From Polytrichum commune (taxonomy: Eukaryota; Streptophyta; Polytrichopsida; Polytrichales; Polytrichaceae), in NCBI GenBank assembly GCA_950295325.1, contig OX485803.1, forward strand, positions 46,329,554-46,393,553: 64,000 bases of DNA, written 5' to 3'. The number at the start of each line of letters is the position of its first letter. Positions within the stretch are counted from its first letter, which is position 1. Below, piece after piece: positions 53,931 to 64,000 of the stretch. Below the pieces are notes generated by a model. The model ran no database searches. It saw only the letters and a program-made list of their open reading frames with translations, and was not told the DNA's origin. The position numbers and the translations under genes are program-made.

Positions 53931-54179
53931 ATGGGATGCCTGCGAGCAGGGTTGTCTATTGTGTCGTGACGGAGGGTAATCCCGACATAATGCCGTGCCG
54001 TCACGACACGTATCCGTCACGACATTATGCCGGATGATGTCTTTATCCTGCCGGACTTGAATTTTACCGAATTTTTTTGTGTATTTACATTACCCCATTG
54101 TGGACACGTAGGAGTTACGATGTCCACGTGTGATGACATGTCAGCAAAGTAGAGGTAAAGTGGGGAATAAAATTACTAG
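53931..54179. repeat. Short inverted-repeat cluster between LINE and C-rich array
   Basis: TGTCGTGACGG (near 53962) is followed by two copies of its complement, CCGTCACGACA (near 53998 and 54014). CATAATGCCG and CATTATGCCGG lie nearby, giving a strong local foldback. It marks the left side of the kinase unit and may be the eroded end of a mobile element. Confidence 0.5.
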
Positions 54180-54478
54180 CGCCCGTCCGCCCTCCCGTCC
54201 GCCCCCGTTCCCCGTCCCATAACCCCGCTCCCTTAGCCCATTAACATGTTCCCTAACCCGTTCCCTACGTTCCCTCCCGTCCTCCCCCCCCCCCCCCCGT
54301 CCGACCTTTTCCCGTCCTCCCTTTTCCCGTCCGACCCTCCCGTCCAACCCTTCCCCCCCGTCCGACCCTCCCTCACACCCGACCCTACCCCCCTACCCGA
54401 CCCTCCCTCCCCGTCCTCCCCCCCCCCCGTCCGACCCTCGTCCAACCCTTCCCCCCCCCCCCCCCCCGTCCGTACCTC
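54180..54478. repeat. C-rich array 1 (CCCGTCCGACC type), upstream of the kinase gene
   Basis: About 300 bp of almost pure C/T on the plus strand with G mostly in CCGTCC, built of degenerate CCCGTCCGACC and CCCGTTCCCTA words and C runs. The same words form the arrays at 57424-57541 and 61081-61347. It ends 22 bp before a TATA box. Confidence 0.9.
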
Positions 54479-54499
54479 ATGATTGGGCTCCCCTCTCCC

Positions 54500-54507
54500 T
54501 ATATAAA
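54500..54507 (+). promoter_or_regulatory. TATA box of the kinase gene
   Basis: TATATAAA, 22 bp after C-rich array 1 and 211 bp before the ATG at 54718. The leader between is open and has no splice sites of note. Confidence 0.65.
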
Positions 54508-54717
54508 GCCGGGGGTGCTTTACTTATAATCACTTTCCTCTCTTCCCACCACTTAGGGACCCGAGACCTTGTTGCGTCCCAAGGGACAGCGGCACCGTGC
54601 GGGTCTTAGTGGTTTTGGGAGGTTAGGGCAAATTGTGGGGTAACCCTCGCAATTTTTTTTCCATATTCACGCACTCGTTTTTACACTCACTCACTCATTC
54701 ACGTGATTTTTTTCTTG

Positions 54718-56634
54718 ATGGAGGGGGAGGCCATTGCTCCTTACCAAGACGAGGATTCAAGGCTGCACCGTGATTGGCTCCAAAGCAAGGCATCCGCGAA
54801 TACTGGCGAGGGTACAGGAAGCGATCCCGGAAGTGGAAGTACTGCAGCACGTAATCCACGTCCAGATCCTTTTCAGTTTGATGAGGAGTTCTTTGCTGTT
54901 GGTCATTCAGGAGGCAACCAAACACGGGGAAGCCGTGGAACACGTGGGAGTCGGGGAAATAGTGGACATAGAGGGAGAACAGGAAGGGGACCAAGCTCAG
55001 GCAGTTCCACAGGTATAAATGCACCCACTCGTTCGGAGAACGTGCCACCACAATCTCCGACACCGTGGACATCAACACCGCTTAGCCCTGCTCGAGATGT
55101 ACCTCAGGGTTCGGAGCATGATGAAAGACGGGGATTGAAACGCGCAGCAGAATCGGGAGGGATGGAGGAGGGGTCTATGGCATCAGGTTCTCAATCAAAG
55201 AAAAAGAGACATAGAGGCAAACGCCATAAACATATCGATGAGGCTCGAAACCATTGTAGGATATTGGTGTTGGAATGGTTTAACAAGCACAGCATGGTTT
55301 TTTTGGAAAAAAAATACCTCAATGATGGTACAAAGGGTTTAGAGTTGGTGAAGAACGAGTTGATTCTTCTTCTCACGGAAGGCATGGCTAGAGCTGAGTT
55401 TGAAGAAGCTAGGGGCATGAGCGATTGGGACACATGGATTGAATCTCAAGCCAGGGAAGCAATCTACAATCCAACAATGACATATGATGTTGTGCATCCC
55501 GGTGAGGGAAGTAGTGGTGGCAGGAAGTCTGAGCTGTACGAGAAGCTAGAGAATTGGAGAAGAGGCGTAATAAGCGCAAAAGGAACATCCGCCCGCACCC
55601 TTCCCGTTTTCATTGACAGACAAATGGCAGACAACATTGCCACTCAGGGCCGACATGGTGTCATATGGTTGCCTAGAGATGTGGAGATCAAAGCCTTGGA
55701 TAAGGAAATCTTCCAAGGGTCCTACGGAGTGGTGCGGAGGGTCACAATTCATGGAGCATCATTCATTCCTAGCTGGATAAAGTGGGCTGGGAAGACCATG
55801 AAGGCCACGAATAGTTTGGAGAATCGAAAGGAGCGTTCACTTGAAGCATTGGCATGTCCTGTAGATCATCCTGGGGTAATCAAGATACAGTACATCCATG
55901 TGAAAACATACGAATCCTATTCATTGTGGTGGAATGGAGGGTCTTTGAAGACCATGAGGGTCTATGACTACCAAGTTCCGGATGTCCACGAGAGCACAAT
56001 CCTTGAAGCGCCAGGGCTCGACTTTGATTCACGAAAACGCTTGGTTGTATATCGAAAGCATCGACCTTATTTGGCATGGGCTCTAATGTGCATTGTGGAT
56101 GTAGTGCACAAGCAGGACGTGTTGCACAATGACCTTAATCCCAACAATGTCATGTTGCATTTTCCACAAGACCGTGAGAACACGGTTTTCATTGGTGTGT
56201 GTGATTGGGGCATGGCATCATGGGGAGATGAGGACGCCCCCTCTAACTATGGAAAAGATTCAGTGGATGAGATGAACAAGCACAAAGCACAATACAATTG
56301 TGTTGGTCCTGAATTATTCCATGTACGAGGGCAGCGTGGAACATCGACCTCTCAAATGAGGATGGCTCGGAAACATAGGCACACATATCTCTCGGAGTCC
56401 TTCTCAGTGGGTGCTTTGGCAAAGAAGATTTATCATAAGGATTCGACTTCCCCCTTGTTTCAGCTAAATCGTGATCCAAATGCCTTGAAGATGCGGTTGG
56501 AGGTAGCATTGGATGCATTAACGAAGACCAATCCAGCGGAAAGGTCAACCGTCACACACGAAGTGAACATTTTGAAGTCGCCTCCATACAACATGGTTAA
56601 CCCGACAATGTGCTTCCGAGACAAGGCAAAATAG
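54718..56634 (+). CDS. Atypical protein-kinase-like protein, intronless
   Basis: 638 residues from the ATG at 54718; a GTG five codons earlier is in frame but is not a plant start. Residues 1-160 are disordered, Gly/Ser/Arg-rich (GSRGTRGSRG). A basic cluster KKKRHRGKRHKH (161-172) suggests nuclear entry. Residues 173-290 form a helical region of unknown type. The kinase-like domain runs from about 325: glycine loop IFQGSYGVV, candidate ATP lysine in WAGKTMKA, catalytic loop HNDLNPNNVML (HRD changed to HND, Asp and Asn kept), CDWG in place of DFG, GPE in place of APE, and ESFSVGALA in the F-helix position. The key Lys, Asp, Asn and Asp are present, so it may be active. It is not clearly of any standard plant kinase group. 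The lack of introns, the C-rich promoter and the transposons around it suggest a mobile or retro-copied gene. Confidence 0.8.
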   Translation: MEGEAIAPYQDEDSRLHRDWLQSKASANTGEGTGSDPGSGSTAARNPRPDPFQFDEEFFAVGHSGGNQTRGSRGTRGSRGNSGHRGRTGRGPSSGSSTGINAPTRSENVPPQSPTPWTSTPLSPARDVPQGSEHDERRGLKRAAESGGMEEGSMASGSQSKKKRHRGKRHKHIDEARNHCRILVLEWFNKHSMVFLEKKYLNDGTKGLELVKNELILLLTEGMARAEFEEARGMSDWDTWIESQAREAIYNPTMTYDVVHPGEGSSGGRKSELYEKLENWRRGVISAKGTSARTLPVFIDRQMADNIATQGRHGVIWLPRDVEIKALDKEIFQGSYGVVRRVTIHGASFIPSWIKWAGKTMKATNSLENRKERSLEALACPVDHPGVIKIQYIHVKTYESYSLWWNGGSLKTMRVYDYQVPDVHESTILEAPGLDFDSRKRLVVYRKHRPYLAWALMCIVDVVHKQDVLHNDLNPNNVMLHFPQDRENTVFIGVCDWGMASWGDEDAPSNYGKDSVDEMNKHKAQYNCVGPELFHVRGQRGTSTSQMRMARKHRHTYLSESFSVGALAKKIYHKDSTSPLFQLNRDPNALKMRLEVALDALTKTNPAERSTVTHEVNILKSPPYNMVNPTMCFRDKAK

Positions 56635-57084
56635 ATTTTTTTTGTTTTTTTTGCATCAATTTTGAATCATACCAATTTTGTAACCGTTGGAGATGTAAAT
56701 AAAGCCATCAATTTTGCATACAAAACTTGTATATTATATGAGGTTTATGGAATGTTTGTACTCCATGAAGCTTTTGCTTCATAATCGAGAAGAAGTCTAT
56801 GGGAGGCTAAGCAAGGTTCTCGCCTCTCGTGAGGCCATGTGTTAACTGTCAACAAAATGGTACTCCCTTCTTTGTAAATCTGACTCTATAAACGTTAACG
56901 GATGAAATTCAACCATAATATGGATGATAAAAACTACACATCCAGTTACATTGATTCATATTCACTCGTGATTTGTAAACTTGATATTGAATAAAGTTTT
57001 GATTGGGTGTACAATTTTATGAATGGTATTCTCTCACAAGGACTATTCACAATTGCTTATATTTATAATTATATAATTCACAAT
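56635..57084. other. 3' flank of the kinase gene
   Basis: AT-rich, with T runs right after the stop and an AATAAA signal at about 56698 suited to the kinase transcript. Otherwise empty. Confidence 0.45.
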
Positions 57085-57404
57085 CACTATTTTCTGGAAG
57101 TTTGGACATAGTCTCGGTTTTTTGGCTCTCAAAAATTCATATGAAGTCCAAAAAATGAGTTCTTGGTATCCATGGATAGGTAATGAAGTCCTCTACATGA
57201 ATATGCAATAATATTTCTACTGCAAAAAAATATATGGTCGCAATTCTACGCTGTTCCCTTTGAATCTGCACTTTGTCACTATTTTTTGGAAGTTTGGACA
57301 TAGTCTCGGTTTTTTGGCTCTCAAAAATTCATATGAAGTCCAAAAAATGAGTTCTTGGTATTCATGAATAGGTAATGAAGTCCTCTACATGAATATGCAA
57401 TAAC
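57085..57404. repeat. 192-bp-spaced direct duplication
   Basis: About 128 bp starting CACTATTTT.TGGAAGTTTG at 57085 is repeated from 57277 with only a few differences, ending in TCCTCTACATGAATATGCAA. The 64 bp between is unique. It lies just before C-rich array 2. Confidence 0.9.
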
Positions 57405-57423
57405 AGTCCTCTAAATAATAGTC

Positions 57424-57541
57424 CCCCATCCACTCACCCCCCCCCGCTCCCTACCCCCCGTCCGGCCCCCCCGTCCGACCCCCCCGTCTGCCCCCGTTCC
57501 CTCCCCGCTCCCACCCGTTCCCTAGCGTTCCCCCCCCCCCA
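57424..57541. repeat. C-rich array 2, upstream of the foldback locus
   Basis: About 118 bp of CCCGTCCGGCC, CCCGTCCGACC, CCCGTTCCCTAGCG and C runs, the same vocabulary as arrays 1 and 3. Confidence 0.9.
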
Positions 57542-57616
57542 TAGCGTTCTATGAGATACTTTTAGAAGTCTCAAGTCTTTTTATATATAGACACTTTAAG
57601 AAGTCTCAAGTATTTC

Positions 57617-57626
57617 TATATATAAA
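57617..57626 (+). promoter_or_regulatory. TATA box before the foldback locus
   Basis: TATATATAAA, 76 bp after C-rich array 2. A second TATATATA lies at about 57581, inside a near-repeat of AGAAGTCTCAAGT. The foldback begins about 320 bp downstream on the same strand. Confidence 0.45.
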
Positions 57627-57944
57627 CTTAATTCTCCTTTCTATATGCTTGAATTACTTCTTTATTTCTTCACATGGATAAGAATCATCCAATCCTCGTC
57701 CTTCGACATCGCATTCATCTCATCATAGCACATATATGATTATGAATTGTCAAAATAACTTGATTTAACTAGATGTTTTGCAATCACATTTTATGGAAAA
57801 AAAACTATACTTTAACTATATACATATAACTATAGTTAACATCCACATAATAAAGTATACTAGAATAGCAATAATAAACTAAGGGTGAACGTAAAGTCGT
57901 TAAAAAAAGTTCTCTTGGAACTGAAAAGTTAATGCATAGTTTCA

Positions 57945-58193
57945 TTTTGCTTTGTGCTTGTTCATCTCAACAGAAACTGTTCATCTCAACAAGAGAAAAT
58001 GTGGAGATCTAATATCACACCCATAATCTCTTTCAAATATACAACACAATTGTAATTTGCTTTATGTTTGTTCATCTCAACATTTTCTCTTGTTGAGATA
58101 AACAGTTTCTGTTGAGATGAACAAACACAAAGCAAAATACAACTCTGTTGTATATTTGAAAGAGATTTTGGATGTGGTATTAGATCTCCACAT
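57945..58193 (+). ncRNA. Long foldback with kinase-derived arms (candidate small-RNA locus)
   Basis: Arms 57999-58082 and 58110-58193 are 84 bp each and pair at all but about seven positions, with a 27-nt loop. An extra copy of the inner part lies at 57945-58001 and matches 58081-58137 (reverse complement) at 55 of 57 positions. Each copy contains a stretch resembling the kinase coding region 56268-56305, which encodes EMNKHKAQYNCVG in the activation segment. Bases 57948-57969 are an exact 22-nt reverse complement of 56268-56289; the two long arms match it with about four differences in 38. On a plus-strand transcript, the 5' arm would be antisense to the kinase mRNA. Beyond this stretch the arms differ from the kinase, so they probably came from a paralogue. 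This is the structure expected of a young MIRNA or hairpin-siRNA gene formed by inverted duplication of its target. Expression is not shown by sequence. Confidence 0.6.
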
Positions 58194-58519
58194 TTGCCTT
58201 TAAGGGTTAAATAGGTGAGGACTAGACCATGTTCGCTAAGGTCCCCCTCAATACTTTCGATGGAATTTGGGGCCAAGGGAGAACTTTAAGGGTTGTTGTT
58301 GATAGGTGTTATGATGTACTAAAGTCATAGAAGTATGTAGTAATAATGAGTTGGTGAATTAAAAAAAATAAAAATAAAAATCATAGAAGTGGTACAACAT
58401 ATTATACAAGTCATAACTTTATTATTGCGACAACGGTACAAATGCCTTTTATTAATCATATACATGAATAAACCATGCAAACTCTAATATTCCACTTCAT
58501 TCCGTTAACTTGACTTCCG
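58194..58519. other. Intergenic DNA after the foldback
   Basis: AT-rich, no feature. An A/T run near 58360-58380 could belong to a 3' end. Confidence 0.4.
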
Positions 58520-59080
58520 TCATGCCAACCTCGTAGATGCTCCTAGCTTCCGGCGAGTATCCATTTTTGGAAGAGGATTCGGCCGAAGTAAATCAACATA
58601 GCTAATCGTTTGGTCTTTCATCCGTTCCTTCAACGGTAGCCGATGAGGCGATAATCCTTTCATCTTCTTACGAATAGGCAAAGTCTTTGAAGATTCACCC
58701 GCTACCTTGACTATTTCAATGTCGATTGAAGTTTCCTCCACATCCATATCCCCGGGCTTCTCCAAAATATCCGCACACAAATCAATCAGATCATTTAGAT
58801 CTCCACCCATGCATTGTGTGTTGTCCTTCTCCACCGCATCGATCTCAAAGTTGTCCGCATATCGTCATTGTTCCTTCTCCGCCCTCATCCTTCAAGCTTG
58901 TGTAGATTGTGAGAAGGGAGTCATGACATATTCATCACGAAATCGATCCCTAGCACTTCTATCATCTCTCTCACGCTCGGGTGTTGGATTGAATGGAATA
59001 TGTAGATCGTCTAAATTGTGTATCTTCTCATCGCATTCTAGACCCTCAAACATGACTCTCTCCTTTCCCATCCTATCCAT
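58520..59080 (-). pseudogene. Unknown protein gene with two in-frame TGA stops
   Basis: One minus-strand frame runs from ATG 59080 to the stop at 58520 and is broken only by TGA at 58892-58894 and 58865-58867. The protein is charged: PERERDDRSARDRFRDEY before the stops, then DLIDLCADILEKPGDMDVEE and RKKMKGLSPHRLPLKERMK after. No domain is recognised. A TATATAAG motif lies about 50 bp upstream (59125-59132). Both stops could be CGA to TGA changes, as expected from methylated-C decay. It may be a coding part of one of the nearby transposons. Confidence 0.4.
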
Positions 59081-59353
59081 GATATTCTACCTTCGTTATA
59101 TGTATGAGTCTCAATGATCTACTTATATATTGAGCTCTAAGGACTTGATGACGATGACCAATAATTGATGTAATCCAATATGTAGAGGATCCAATTCTCG
59201 TTGGTAAGATAAAGTCAACGCAATCGGAATAAAAATAAAGTTGGTTAGGTAAAAATAGTACACTTTTGAAAAAGTCTTCCGACATCTGCATTGGAAACCT
59301 TCAAACCTCTTTGATACATCTTTGAACTTTCCATATTTGATTAGTTATCCACT

Positions 59354-60250
59354 CATTCAACAAATCACTAATTTGTGCTTCAATCTTAGTGGTTCATATG
59401 GTTTCACACCCAATGTCGCGCATCCGAATGTATTTTCATTCAACAAGTCACTAATTTGTGCTTCAACCTTAGTGGTTCATATGGTTTCACAACCCATGTC
59501 GCGCACCCGAATGCATTTTCATTCAACAAATCACTAATTTGTGCTTCAACCTTAGTGGTTCATATGGTTTCACAACCCATATCGCGCGCCCGAATGCATT
59601 TTCATTCAACAAGTCACTAATTTGTGCTTCAACCTTAGTGGTTCATATGGTTTCACAACCCATGTCGCGCACCCGAATGCATTTTCATTCAACAAGTCCC
59701 TAATTTGTGCTTCAACCTTAGTGGTTCATATGGTTTCACAACCCATGTCGCGCACCCGAATGCATTTTCATTCAACAAATCACTAATTTGTGCTTCAACC
59801 TTAGTGGTTCATATGGTTTCACAACCCATATCGCGCGCCCGAATGCATTTTCATTCAACAAGTCACTAATTTGTGCTTCAACCTTAGTGGTTCATATGGT
59901 TTCACAACCCATGTCGCGCACCCGAATGCATTTTCATTCAACAAGTCCCTAATTTGTGCTTCAACCTTAGTGGTTCATATGGTTTCACAACCCATGTCGC
60001 GCACCCGAATGCATTTTCATTCAACAAATCACTAATTTGTGCTTCAACCTTAGTGGTTCATATGGTTTCACAACCCATATCGCGCGCCCGAATGCATTTT
60101 CATTCAACAAGTCACTAATTTGTGCTTCAACCTTAGTGGTTCATATGGTTTCACAACCCATGTCGCGCACCCGAATGCATTTTCATTCAACAAGTCACTA
60201 ATTTGTGCTTTAACCTTAGTGGTTCATATGGTTTCACAACCAATGTATTT
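59354..60250. repeat. 83-bp tandem array with 249-bp higher-order unit
   Basis: Eleven units begin (at CATTCAACAA) at 59354, 59437, 59520, 59603, 59686, 59769, 59852, 59935, 60018, 60101 and 60184, exactly 83 bp apart; the last is partial. Three unit types alternate: A (CAAATCAC with ATATCGCGCGCCC), B (CAAGTCAC with ATGTCGCGCACCC) and C (CAAGTCCC with ATGTCGCGCACCC). From 59520 the order is A-B-C, A-B-C, A-B, so the repeat that amplified last is the 249-bp trimer. The first and last units are the most diverged. Frames across it are not genes. Confidence 0.97.
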
Positions 60251-61080
60251 TCAGATACAACAACTCAATAGATACATGTTACTTATCTTCTTGGTAGTGG
60301 TACAATGCTTTTGCTTGAGTATCTCAGATCGAAGCTAGGATATGCATGCATGGTGTAAAAATAAGATAAAATTGGAGCTTTTGGATATGGTATGTCTAAT
60401 GTCTTGTGTAGTGTTGCCGCATCATCTTCATGTTTACCCTCTAATTCTAAAATGTTCATATGTTTCTTCAAATGATGAAGATGGTAGCCCAATCCATTGC
60501 ATCCACTTCAAGCCCACAAATAAAGACCCGCATAAGAGCATCAAGGGGCTTCAAGTTCACCCTATTGCGCAAGTGCCATCAAGTAGCAATGCTAGGAGGG
60601 TACCCTTTGACTATTCGGAAAAGTGCAACTACCTTTTAGACATCACCAACTATTCCGGGGCTTTATAGCTATTGAGATTTGTTTAGACCCTAATTTAGCC
60701 TTGGACGGGTTCAAATCCACTTTGGACGGGTTCTAAATACAACATTAAGAAAATCCCCCCAAGAAATGTACAAATATCAATTACATTATGTCATATAGAG
60801 CATGTGAATATAAGCATAATGCAATCAATCCACTAATATCCAATCAAAATATCAATCTTGAAGTGCTAGTGAATAAGAATTAGTATATTTAAACATGTTG
60901 AACATTTAAAAAACAAACGAGATACTTATCCTTAATAATATGACTTAACACCAACATAGATCCTATGTTTATTTTTTAGAATCTATGTTTATATTCTAAT
61001 CATATCTGACATATATTATATTTAATTAAACTTCTATTTAATTAAATAATCATCCATTAAATTAATTAATCAATTTAACG
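60251..61080. other. Spacer between the satellite and C-rich array 3
   Basis: A 108-codon plus frame at 60342-60668 includes YSEKCNYLLDITNYSG, but no family is recognised and it opens at a weak position. The rest is AT-rich and empty. Confidence 0.35.
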
Positions 61081-61347
61081 AACCTCCCCTCCCCTCCCCT
61101 CCCTCTCCCTCGCCTCTCCCTCCCCCTCCCCCCCTCCCCTCCCCTCCCTCTCCCTCGCCTCTCCCTCCCCCTCCCCCCCTCCCCCCCCCCCCCTCGCCCC
61201 CCTTCCCCCCCCCCCCGTCCGACCACCCTACCCTACCCGTTCCCGCACCCGTTCCCACCACGTCCGACCCGTTCCCTACCCGTTCCCCCCCCGTCCGACC
61301 CGTTCCCGCCCCGTCCCCTGCCCGTTCCCCCCCCCCCCGTCCGCCCC
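61081..61347. repeat. C-rich array 3, upstream of the hAT transposase
   Basis: It starts with CCCCTCCCCTCCCTCTCCC duplicated at about 54-bp spacing, then turns into CCCGTCCGACCC, CCCGTTCCCTACCC and long C runs, the same words as arrays 1 and 2. It ends 40 bp before a TATA box. Confidence 0.9.
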
Positions 61348-61386
61348 CGTTCCCACTATAGATTCGTTAACCTCCTCCATGAGTAC

Positions 61387-61392
61387 TATAAA
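61387..61392 (+). promoter_or_regulatory. TATA box of the hAT transposase gene
   Basis: TATAAA, 40 bp after C-rich array 3 and 237 bp before the likely start at 61624. The leader may contain an intron ending at the TTTGTATTTGCAG acceptor (about 61609). Confidence 0.6.
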
Positions 61393-61623
61393 GTAAGGGT
61401 TCAAGGTGCCATTTTTGCCTCCACTGTCATAGTGTGTCTCAAGACTTTTGATTCTCCTCTAAGGAGTGAGGATTGAATGTGTGAGACCCGATTGCAGAGG
61501 ATACTTTGTCCATTCTGGTCACTGTGAATTAGGGATGCCTTTGTGGCACTCTTGAACAGGACCTAGTATGCGATCAAAGCTACTTGCTCTACATTGTTTG
61601 TATTTGCAGGTTTTGTTGAAGTC

Positions 61624-64000
61624 ATGCCACACCGAAATGATGCATGGGATCATTGGTACGAGGATAAGGGGCTGGTTCCCGGTAAATCACAAAGGCAGGT
61701 TAAATGTAGGTTTTGCTCGTTCGTCATATCTTACCGAGGAAATAGAATGTTGGCCCAACTTGGTTATAGACCTCCTTTAGGGGGTGCTTCTGATGTTTCC
61801 TCATGTAGGATGGTACCCCCGCATATTAGGGTCTTGTTTGAAAATTGTGGAGGCAATGTGCCCTTACATGTAGGCATTGTAAATGAGGACTCTCCGATGC
61901 GAGATGATGTACCTCTAGAGCCTATTATAGCGGACTCCGTAGTTAGTGAAACAGAGCCTTTGCTTATGTCCCAATCCACTCAGCATTCTGATCTTGTGAT
62001 ATATAGCACACCTCCTCGTGAACTACGTCAACTCAACATACCGGAGGGGTTCAATGTGTCAACAAAACAACTCCTCGATAGAGCATGGGCAACGGCTTTT
62101 TATGAAGCTAACATTCCTTTCAACATTGTGAGACATCCAGCATTTGTTCATGCTGTGCGTGAAACTGCCCGTCATCGAATGCCAACCTACACACCACCAT
62201 CGTACAATGCCATCCGTACGAAGTTGTTAACTGATAAAAAGGTTGACCTAGACAGGGAAGTGAAGGAGAAGCTGGGGAATTCCGTTGACAAATACGGCGT
62301 TACAATATGTTGTGATGGATGGGACAACGTGCAAAACAGACCTCTCCTAAACGTTCTTCAATGTGGCACAAAGGGAGACGTCTTCTTGGGTACCATTGAT
62401 ACCACGGGGAATCACAAGGATCATGTCTACGTTGCTGCTTAAATTCAACCATTTGTGGAAAAGGTTGGTCGACATAATGTGGTCCAAGTTTGCACCGACA
62501 ATGCCCCGGTTATGGCCTCCGCTTGCCGTGACTTGATTCAAGCAAATCCCGATCTATATGTTCAAGGATGTGTTGCGCATTGCCTAGATCTCCTCTTAGA
62601 AGATTGGGGGAAGGAGGAATGGGTGAAAAAGTTGGTAAAAAAAGGGCGCCATATTTGTGTTTTTATAAAAAACCATCATGCTCCTCAAGCTATATTCCGG
62701 AGGTTGTCACCAAATCTCTCACTCCGCCTACCTGTAGAAACCCGTTTTGCAACAAGCTTCATCATGATAGAACGTCTTCTTCAAGTACGCAATGCTTTGG
62801 AAAGAATGGTGGTTGATGATGATTGGTCTACTCTAATGCGTGATTTGAGGAGGAGATCAGGCACCGCTTGGACGAAGGGCTTTGCAGTGCGACGCTTTAT
62901 ACGTTCCGATGGATTCTGGAACACGTGCGAAAATTTCTTGTATATGGTGATCCCGGTTGTTAAAGCTCTTCGTGTATTTGATGGCAAGGCGCCTGCAATG
63001 GGATTGGCTTGGAAGGTCATGCATGATTTACAAACCCATATTCGTGGATTCAGTAAACTTCCATTTCGCTTAAGCCCTGAGCTTGCTGCAAATGCTATGG
63101 TAATGTTTGAAAATAGATGGAGGTTGATGTTGAATGATCTTCATTGGGCTGGAGCGATGTTAAATCCGCTTCTACGTGGTTGGGCCCCACTCCATGAGCA
63201 TGAGAATTCGAGGCCAATCCTAAATCGAGTTCTTCGCAGACTTACTCCAGATCAAGACACTTATGTCCAAATCCTCCACCAGTACCAAGATTTCCTTGAA
63301 AATCGAGGGCCTTTTGCTGATTCTACAGACCTGAACGTGCATGCCGCACCTCTCCATGAATGGTGGGATGCAATGGGAGGTGGAGCTAAGGCCCTCCAAA
63401 CAATAGCGAGACGTATCCTTGCACAAGTATGTTCCGCGTCCGCATGTGAGCGCAATTGGAGCATGTATTCATATGTTCACAACAAGAGTCGCAATCGCTT
63501 GAAGCATAGTCGTGCTGAGGACCTCGTTTACATATATACCAATAGTAGGCTCATTCGACATCGGAGGGGCCCGAGACCTGTACAATGGTACGAAGTGAAT
63601 GAGGTCCATTCTGACGATGACCTTGACGAAGAAGATGACAACGAAGTTGACGTGGATCCAAATGATAGGGCCGGAAATGATGACGACAACAATGTTGATG
63701 ACATTGACGATGATTTGGATGATCTCGATTCAGAGAAATCTGATTCTGATGATGAAGATGAGGGTTATAATAGTAATGATAGAAACCTTGGGGTGTTTGA
63801 TTTTGATGAAGCGGATGTCCCCCATAATAACGACGGAATGCATGACGATCATGAGGGGTCTATTGGAGGTCCACCCCTTGAAACCCTCCATACTGGACAA
63901 GGTTGTCGCCTTGACCATGATGTTGCTATGGGGGCAACAGAGAATGTAGGAATTGAAGTAGATTCCTTGCAACCTCACAGCGATTCCCTTTCTTTTCGTG
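61624..64000 (+). pseudogene. hAT-superfamily transposase with one premature stop, runs off window
   Basis: From ATG 61624 one frame stays open to the window edge except for a single TAA at 62440-62442. The N-terminus has a BED-like segment (WDHWYEDKGLVPGKSQRQVK, then CRFC) but lacks clear zinc-binding His. Next come PPSYNAIRTKLL, GVTICCDGWDNVQNRPLLNV (first catalytic region), the stop, then VCTDNAPVMASACRDL and GCVAHCLDLLLEDWG. The C-terminal dimerisation region reads LQTIARRILAQVCSASACERNWS and SRNRLKHSRAEDLVYIY. A very acidic tail (DDDLDEEDDNEVD and more) follows. hAT transposases cut and paste DNA and leave 8-bp duplications. The stop falls between catalytic blocks, so the copy is probably dead unless read through or recently mutated; otherwise it is nearly intact. 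Start choice: it follows a good splice acceptor, and an upstream in-frame TTG is not a plant start. Confidence 0.88.

Follow-up and report, generated by a model that had tools for sequence, protein, structure and literature searches.

A kinase-matching foldback carried within a multi-copy hAT transposon of Polytrichum commune

Introduction

The rice microRNA miR820 comes from a foldback inside a CACTA DNA transposon that is present in few copies (five in rice Nipponbare), and the arms of the foldback come from protein-coding sequence (PMC3459959). In maize Mu killer, an element's own gene has been inversely duplicated, giving potential dsRNA against the family (PMC3440606). Pack-TYPE transposons are DNA transposons that bear non-transposase coding DNA (PMC8903248), and miRNA-like folds are common in maize genes and in most transposon superfamilies, where a higher diversity of small RNAs maps (PMC10760457). 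These statements follow excerpts of the four papers. In the inverted-duplication model of MIRNA birth, the arms of a foldback share sequence with the presumed target.

Here we describe a foldback from Polytrichum commune, a species for whose genome we found no paper in the open-access literature. It lies in a window of 64,000 nucleotides, the whole stretch of DNA that was analysed (contig OX485803.1, positions 46,329,554 to 46,393,553). The foldback resembles miR820 in its location inside a DNA transposon, its low copy number and the protein-coding origin of its arms, Mu killer in the inverse duplication of sequence from an element's own gene, Pack-TYPE transposons in the non-transposase coding DNA of its element, and the MIRNA-birth model in the sequence that its arms share with a presumed target. 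A sequence-only reading of the window had proposed a candidate new MIRNA or siRNA locus lying close to a kinase gene of its presumed target family. We found instead that the kinase and the foldback both lie inside one hAT transposon and that the kinase is multi-copy cargo.

Results

An inverted-repeat search located a foldback with arms of 86 nt each (left, 57997-58082; right, 58110-58195) that are 92% complementary. The 27-nt loop (58083-58109) was obtained from this search and from RNA folding. The in silico fold of 57930-58210 had a predicted energy of -128 kcal/mol compared with a shuffle mean of -52.9 (z = -15.8), and none of 200 shuffles was as good. The foldback is the longest of four inverted repeats in the window (at least 40 nt, arms at most 600 bases apart), and a second inverted repeat overlaps it, pairing 57935-58008 with 58074-58147. 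In a search of Rfam 15, 16 matches were obtained up to E 1 and none reached the gathering score; the best was MIR7723, with 75.6 bits against 200. TATATATA strings occur at 57582 and 57617; any promoter role for them is putative.

Repeat comparison identified the codons that the foldback arms have in common with the kinase as part of the activation segment (56268-56305, plus strand). This kinase-like stretch occurs three times in the foldback region, antisense at 57935-57972 (minus strand) and at 58042-58079 in the left arm, and sense at 58113-58150 in the right arm. The sequence-only reading was borne out in reporting a foldback downstream of the kinase and an exact 22-nt antisense match, between 57948-57969 in the outermost copy and kinase bases 56268-56289. 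This is the longest exact match between the foldback and the window's kinase, and 100 mononucleotide shuffles reached 13 nt at most. That extra copy had been called an inner one, whereas it lies outside the main arms, on their 5′ side. The further proposal that the arms are kinase-derived stands for the activation-segment codons, which are present in antisense and sense, but the resemblance is limited to about 38 of the 86 nt in each arm.

The transposon that houses the kinase and the foldback, which we assign to subfamily A, was delimited by terminal repeats, target duplication and comparison of copies. It occupies 53947-64000 on the plus strand and continues to 68539 in window numbering (L014), so that its length is 14.6 kb and its right end lies 4.5 kb beyond the window's end. 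Its ends, CAGGGTTGTCTAT (53947-53959, plus strand, with the inverse at 68539) and ATAGACAACCCTG, are short terminal inverted repeats of the hAT kind. The left end is preceded by the target-site duplication CCTGCGAG (53939-53946), and its partner beyond the window, CCTGTGAG, is identical at 7 of 8 positions. Both ends were found in four copies, those of the window, L009, L010 and L011; the last three have perfect and mutually different 8-bp duplications (TGCCTCAT, ATTCCCAT and CTTCCTCC, respectively). No terminal repeat was found in the right-end stretches fetched for L005 (L028) and L007 (L027).

Similarity among copies begins at 53946/53947 in L009-L013 and L017, and it spans the kinase, the spacer, an 83-bp tandem repeat (59353-60246 within the element) and the transposase, running past the window's end. 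The N-terminal part of the hAT transposase (61624-62442, plus strand) contains the first half of DUF659 and ends in an in-frame TAA at 62440-62442; the same frame continues beyond this codon (62443-63700, plus strand) with the second half of DUF659 and the hAT dimerisation domain. When the frame was searched in two pieces, PF05699 (Dimer_Tnp_hAT) scored 44.3 bits and DUF659 scored 37.7 and 65.4 bits, all above cut-off. From this similarity, the terminal repeats, the duplications and the transposase domains, we conclude that the foldback belongs to the interior of a hAT transposon. A 24-nt extended left end occurred at 587 sites with up to three mismatches in the 407.8-Mb assembly, the extent of all our genome searches, and its reversed control at none. 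The element was not classed as a MITE, which would be short, non-coding and end at the foldback, as it is 14.6 kb long with a kinase ORF and transposase domains; the presence of those domains likewise set aside membership among Pack-TYPE transposons, which have no transposase.

Several other features were observed in the element and the window. C-rich low-complexity tracts of the CCCGTCCGACCC type occur three times in the element (54180-54480, 57420-57540 and 61080-61360). A 135-bp direct repeat (96% identity; 57084-57218 and 57276-57410), also found in other copies, lies just downstream of the kinase. A 96-codon ORF on the minus strand (58520-58810) has no Pfam match and is convergent with the kinase, and the foldback lies between the 3′ ends of the two. 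A domain search also showed that the window encodes an AP2-domain protein, as suits a plant. The plastid PsaB on contig C8 of the assembly scored highest against PDB chains 8htu, 6l35 and 7ksq (1701-1705 bits, the next at 1667), which are moss (Physcomitrium) photosystem I structures, in line with a moss.

A genome search with 57900-58240, in which the best 40 of 96 candidates were scored, returned seven full-length places with 90-100% identity as well as partial ones; the other matches were pieces in L013 and L017 and short ones, 36-38 nt long, to the kinase-like stretch. The foldback is complete in 7 of the 10 subfamily A copies examined (the window and L005-L010), although the kinase is absent from the stretches fetched for L006 and L008. 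It has decayed in the others, as L011 has the right arm only, L013 has the left outer copy only and L017 has none. The foldback has moved with the element, since copies with their own target-site duplications carry it; L009 and L010 combine a complete foldback with perfect 8-bp duplications. In the kinase tree L011 and L017 are nested with the window and L005 (support 98), placing them among foldback-bearing copies, which shows that on this phylogeny their losses are secondary. L013 has the most diverged subfamily A kinase (branch support 69) and retains the left foldback junction; hence the arrangement probably predates the spread of subfamily A.

We also considered the possibility that an independent foldback or MITE had inserted into the hAT element, with L017, which lacks 57729-58204, representing the empty site. 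The sequence at 57732-57943 (plus strand) is indeed a diverged piece (about 75% identity) of a high-copy repeat of about 400 bp, for which a search gave 803 first-look candidates, of which 40 were scored. Copies of this repeat were examined in L029-L034, and two neighbouring ones occur in L033. However, the end of this repeat and the start of the foldback lie within about 30 nt of each other, the foldback being joined near the repeat's 3′ end. A search with the outer right arm (58138-58210), which skips very common words, gave 16 matches in nine loci, all of which hold the foldback or its segment, and among the best candidates no copy of the foldback was found outside this hAT family. Moreover, the L017 junction has an extra GTGAGG and no target duplication, and L017 is nested among foldback-bearing copies. 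Given the arm search, this junction and the kinase tree, we rejected a MITE insertion as the main explanation, and we regard insertion of any independent foldback as quite improbable.

L012, with a kinase about 89-90% identical to that of the window, contains the segment once, in sense orientation and directly abutting the end of the flanking repeat, in a locus that is rearranged. A 32-nt pattern across this joint occurred once in the genome at up to three mismatches. Compared with the consensus of subfamily A, L012 has 2 differences over 73 right-arm positions, and the two consensus arms also differ from one another at 2 of 73. Its single copy could be what existed before inversion, or it could have arisen later by deletion between two AGTTTC repeats. 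As the locus is rearranged, these two counts are equal and the 6-bp repeat allows an origin by deletion, we did not take L012 as proof that a single copy came first. An alignment of L012 over 57905-57945, with 19 of 29 positions differing, was discarded as a misalignment.

The cargo kinase-like ORF (54718-56634, plus strand) encodes 638 amino acids. Typical kinases have HRD, DFG and APE motifs; by eye, these are replaced by HND, DWG and GPE. Profile scores were weak, with Pkinase at 25.3 bits (cut-off 31.7) and APH at 23.5 bits (just over 23.2), and a PDB sequence search gave weak kinase matches, the best with an E value of 0.0025. An AlphaFold model with a mean pLDDT of 31.6 was set aside. 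Of 256 candidates from a genome search, 69 were scored, and by hand count 42 of these, some of them partial, had no in-frame stop over the match. The four scored matches closest to the window's kinase had 92-97% protein identity (subfamily A), while the other 64, including L012, had 80-83%. The six subfamily B kinases that were fetched (L018-L023) formed a clade with 100% support in a tree of 15 copies. Thus, a largely intact kinase-like ORF is carried by dozens of hAT copies of at least two subfamilies. Among the matches listed in our search of the open-access literature, we found no case of hAT elements carrying a kinase, in mosses or via gene capture.

In the four subfamily B kinases compared by hand, terminal-repeat sites (C1:14055393, C1:72700694, C1:56897561 and C2:2243556) lie 13.6-14.2 kb downstream of the kinase start, and subfamily B kinases are therefore very likely carried by elements of this kind. 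The segment at 58405-59400, downstream of the kinase, has the opposite orientation relative to the kinase in the subfamily B loci L018 and L022. Values of dN/dS were 0.75 within subfamily A (28 pairs, 8 copies), 0.63 within subfamily B (15 pairs, 6 copies) and 0.51 between the subfamilies (48 pairs), which suggests mild purifying selection on the spreading kinase lineages and little on individual copies. The kinase in L013 is interrupted by a 1.1-kb element (L013:3925-5037) that shares the hAT ends of the larger element and is flanked by a perfect duplication of 8 bp, GATCACGA; judging by its size, this insert is non-autonomous.

Comparison of the foldbacks with the two kinase groups showed where the closest matches lie. 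Against seven subfamily A kinases no exact match exceeded 22 nt. Against the six subfamily B kinases, exact matches reached 38 nt for L007, L008 and L009 (to L021 and L022) and for L005 (to L020), 32 nt for the window, 26 nt for L006 and 19 nt for L010. The suspicion in the sequence-only reading that the true source might be a paralogue elsewhere is in keeping with these results. A 35-nt pattern was found at 124 places in the genome with up to three mismatches, the foldbacks themselves included, and its reversed control at none. By hand count, 73 of the 100 places listed share a single string, in which one of 35 bases departs from the foldback consensus of subfamily A. In the six stretches of subfamily B (4.5-9 kb, partial elements), no alignment to the foldback was longer than 70 nt; in an inverted-repeat search of L018, L020 and L022, L018 and L022 each contained one unrelated 42-nt pair (79-81%) and L020 none.

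The longer matches to subfamily B, the 73 places one base away from the foldback consensus and the shortage of foldback-like sequence in the fetched subfamily B loci would fit a conflict between transposons, in which the subfamily A hairpin RNA silences the cargo kinase and elements of the rival, commoner subfamily B while the diverged subfamily A kinase escapes through its mismatches. If true, this would be RNA interference operating between transposons. We think it highly improbable. L012 has the same 38-nt match in its single segment copy, the matches of L006 and L010 are short, subfamily B has multiplied widely, and an exact match of 22 nt is still sufficient to hit the subfamily A kinase. 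The simplest explanation of the match lengths is that the fragment keeps an older, ancestral kinase sequence and that the subfamily A kinase has changed since.

Divergence among the seven complete copies was used to look for selection on the hairpin. Mean pairwise divergence was 0.058 for the whole foldback and 0.041, 0.050 and 0.048 for three flanking stretches. Within the foldback it was 0.053 for the left arm, 0.032 for the loop, and for the right arm 0.046 without its converted end and 0.077 with it. Over 73 pairs, 25 arm cells had changed; 18 of these changes were one-sided and left the pair broken, four were one-sided with pairing kept, and of the three two-sided ones, two were paired and one unpaired. 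Conservation of the hairpin above background was thus not seen in these copies. Because the foldback evolves no more slowly than its flanks and most changed arm pairs are broken, these copies give no indication that a hairpin RNA has been selected for, and nothing in the alignments requires it. Seven full copies are few and young, however, such that weak selection could be missed, and conservation above background is not demanded of young MIRNAs.

In four copies, those of the window, L005, L006 and L011, the end of the right arm (AGATCTCCACATTT) is similar to the left arm, while another sequence is present in L007-L010 and L012. The last two bases of this end are TT in three of the copies, and it is T-rich in L011. 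Judging from these alignments, arm-to-arm conversion accounts for the right-arm end of the four copies. The two paired two-sided changes are probably also conversion, although they could instead reflect selection for pairing.

Discussion

We consider it likely that the foldback is a structural part of subfamily A, a by-product of transposon rearrangement that may cause incidental silencing of the family, and not a selected MIRNA. In the course of events that we favour, about 38 bp of a kinase carried by such an element would have been pasted, through repair or template switching, into the 3′ spacer of the element, bordering an old high-copy repeat. The pasted segment would then have been inverted and duplicated to form overlapping palindromes before subfamily A spread, and later drift would have brought arm-to-arm conversion in some copies and arm loss in others. 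Were the foldback transcribed, either through read-through from the kinase or from a start of its own, it would give dsRNA, and those Dicer products that come from the 38-nt part would have their matches in transposon kinases, for the most part best in those of subfamily B. The most likely effect would be incidental self- or family-silencing of the transposon. Incidental production of siRNA is plausible by analogy with maize, since miRNA-like folds there draw diverse small RNAs (PMC10760457, in the excerpt used).

That the foldback is a newly arisen MIRNA or siRNA locus whose function has been selected, with small RNAs from the transposon regulating a kinase as in the rice pair miR820/OsDRM2, is possible but unlikely. 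The strong predicted hairpin, the exact matches (up to 22 nt for subfamily A kinase sites and 38 nt for those of subfamily B), the 124 near-identical sites, foldbacks included, and the miR820 precedent (PMC3459959, as excerpted) all speak for it. Its positive evidence consists of the hairpin and the match, and the transposon context explains both. The foldback has no extra conservation, its arm changes are mostly one-sided and unpaired, three of ten copies have lost all or part of it, those target sites that were examined belong to transposon kinases, and no Rfam family was matched at the gathering score. The proposed birth of a MIRNA by inverted duplication of its target would, for its part, concern only about 38 nt of a foldback that shows no such conservation. 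We therefore retain the explanation by transposon rearrangement.

The locus is a multi-copy example of a hairpin with gene-derived arms arising in a DNA transposon, and complete copies can be seen in it together with stages of decay. It also carries a warning that a foldback next to a look-alike gene need not be a new host MIRNA. The foldback is ordinary in kind and the cargo is unusual; a hAT family with a largely intact, multi-copy kinase ORF is of more interest than the foldback.

Comparison with the known systems shows where the likeness ends. The inverted-duplication model of MIRNA birth differs from this case, in which about 38 of 86 nt per arm are shared, inside a transposon, and the evidence is sequence. 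Pack-TYPE transposons are defined as non-autonomous (PMC8903248, in the excerpt used), whereas the element described here has transposase domains, whose frame is interrupted by a stop codon in the window copy, as well as a complete cargo ORF of 638 codons. Mu killer, as the excerpt of PMC3440606 describes it, is a single rearranged locus that contains about 1.3 kb of mudrA, whereas here 38 nt of a cargo gene are involved in a multi-copy subfamily. For miR820, the excerpt of PMC3459959 reports Northern, cleavage and co-evolution evidence and a host methyltransferase as the target; the gene matched here is transposon cargo, and the foldback is described from its DNA sequence. By analogy, and as far as these excerpts describe the two systems, we regard miR820 as the nearest functional precedent and Mu killer as the nearest silencing precedent.
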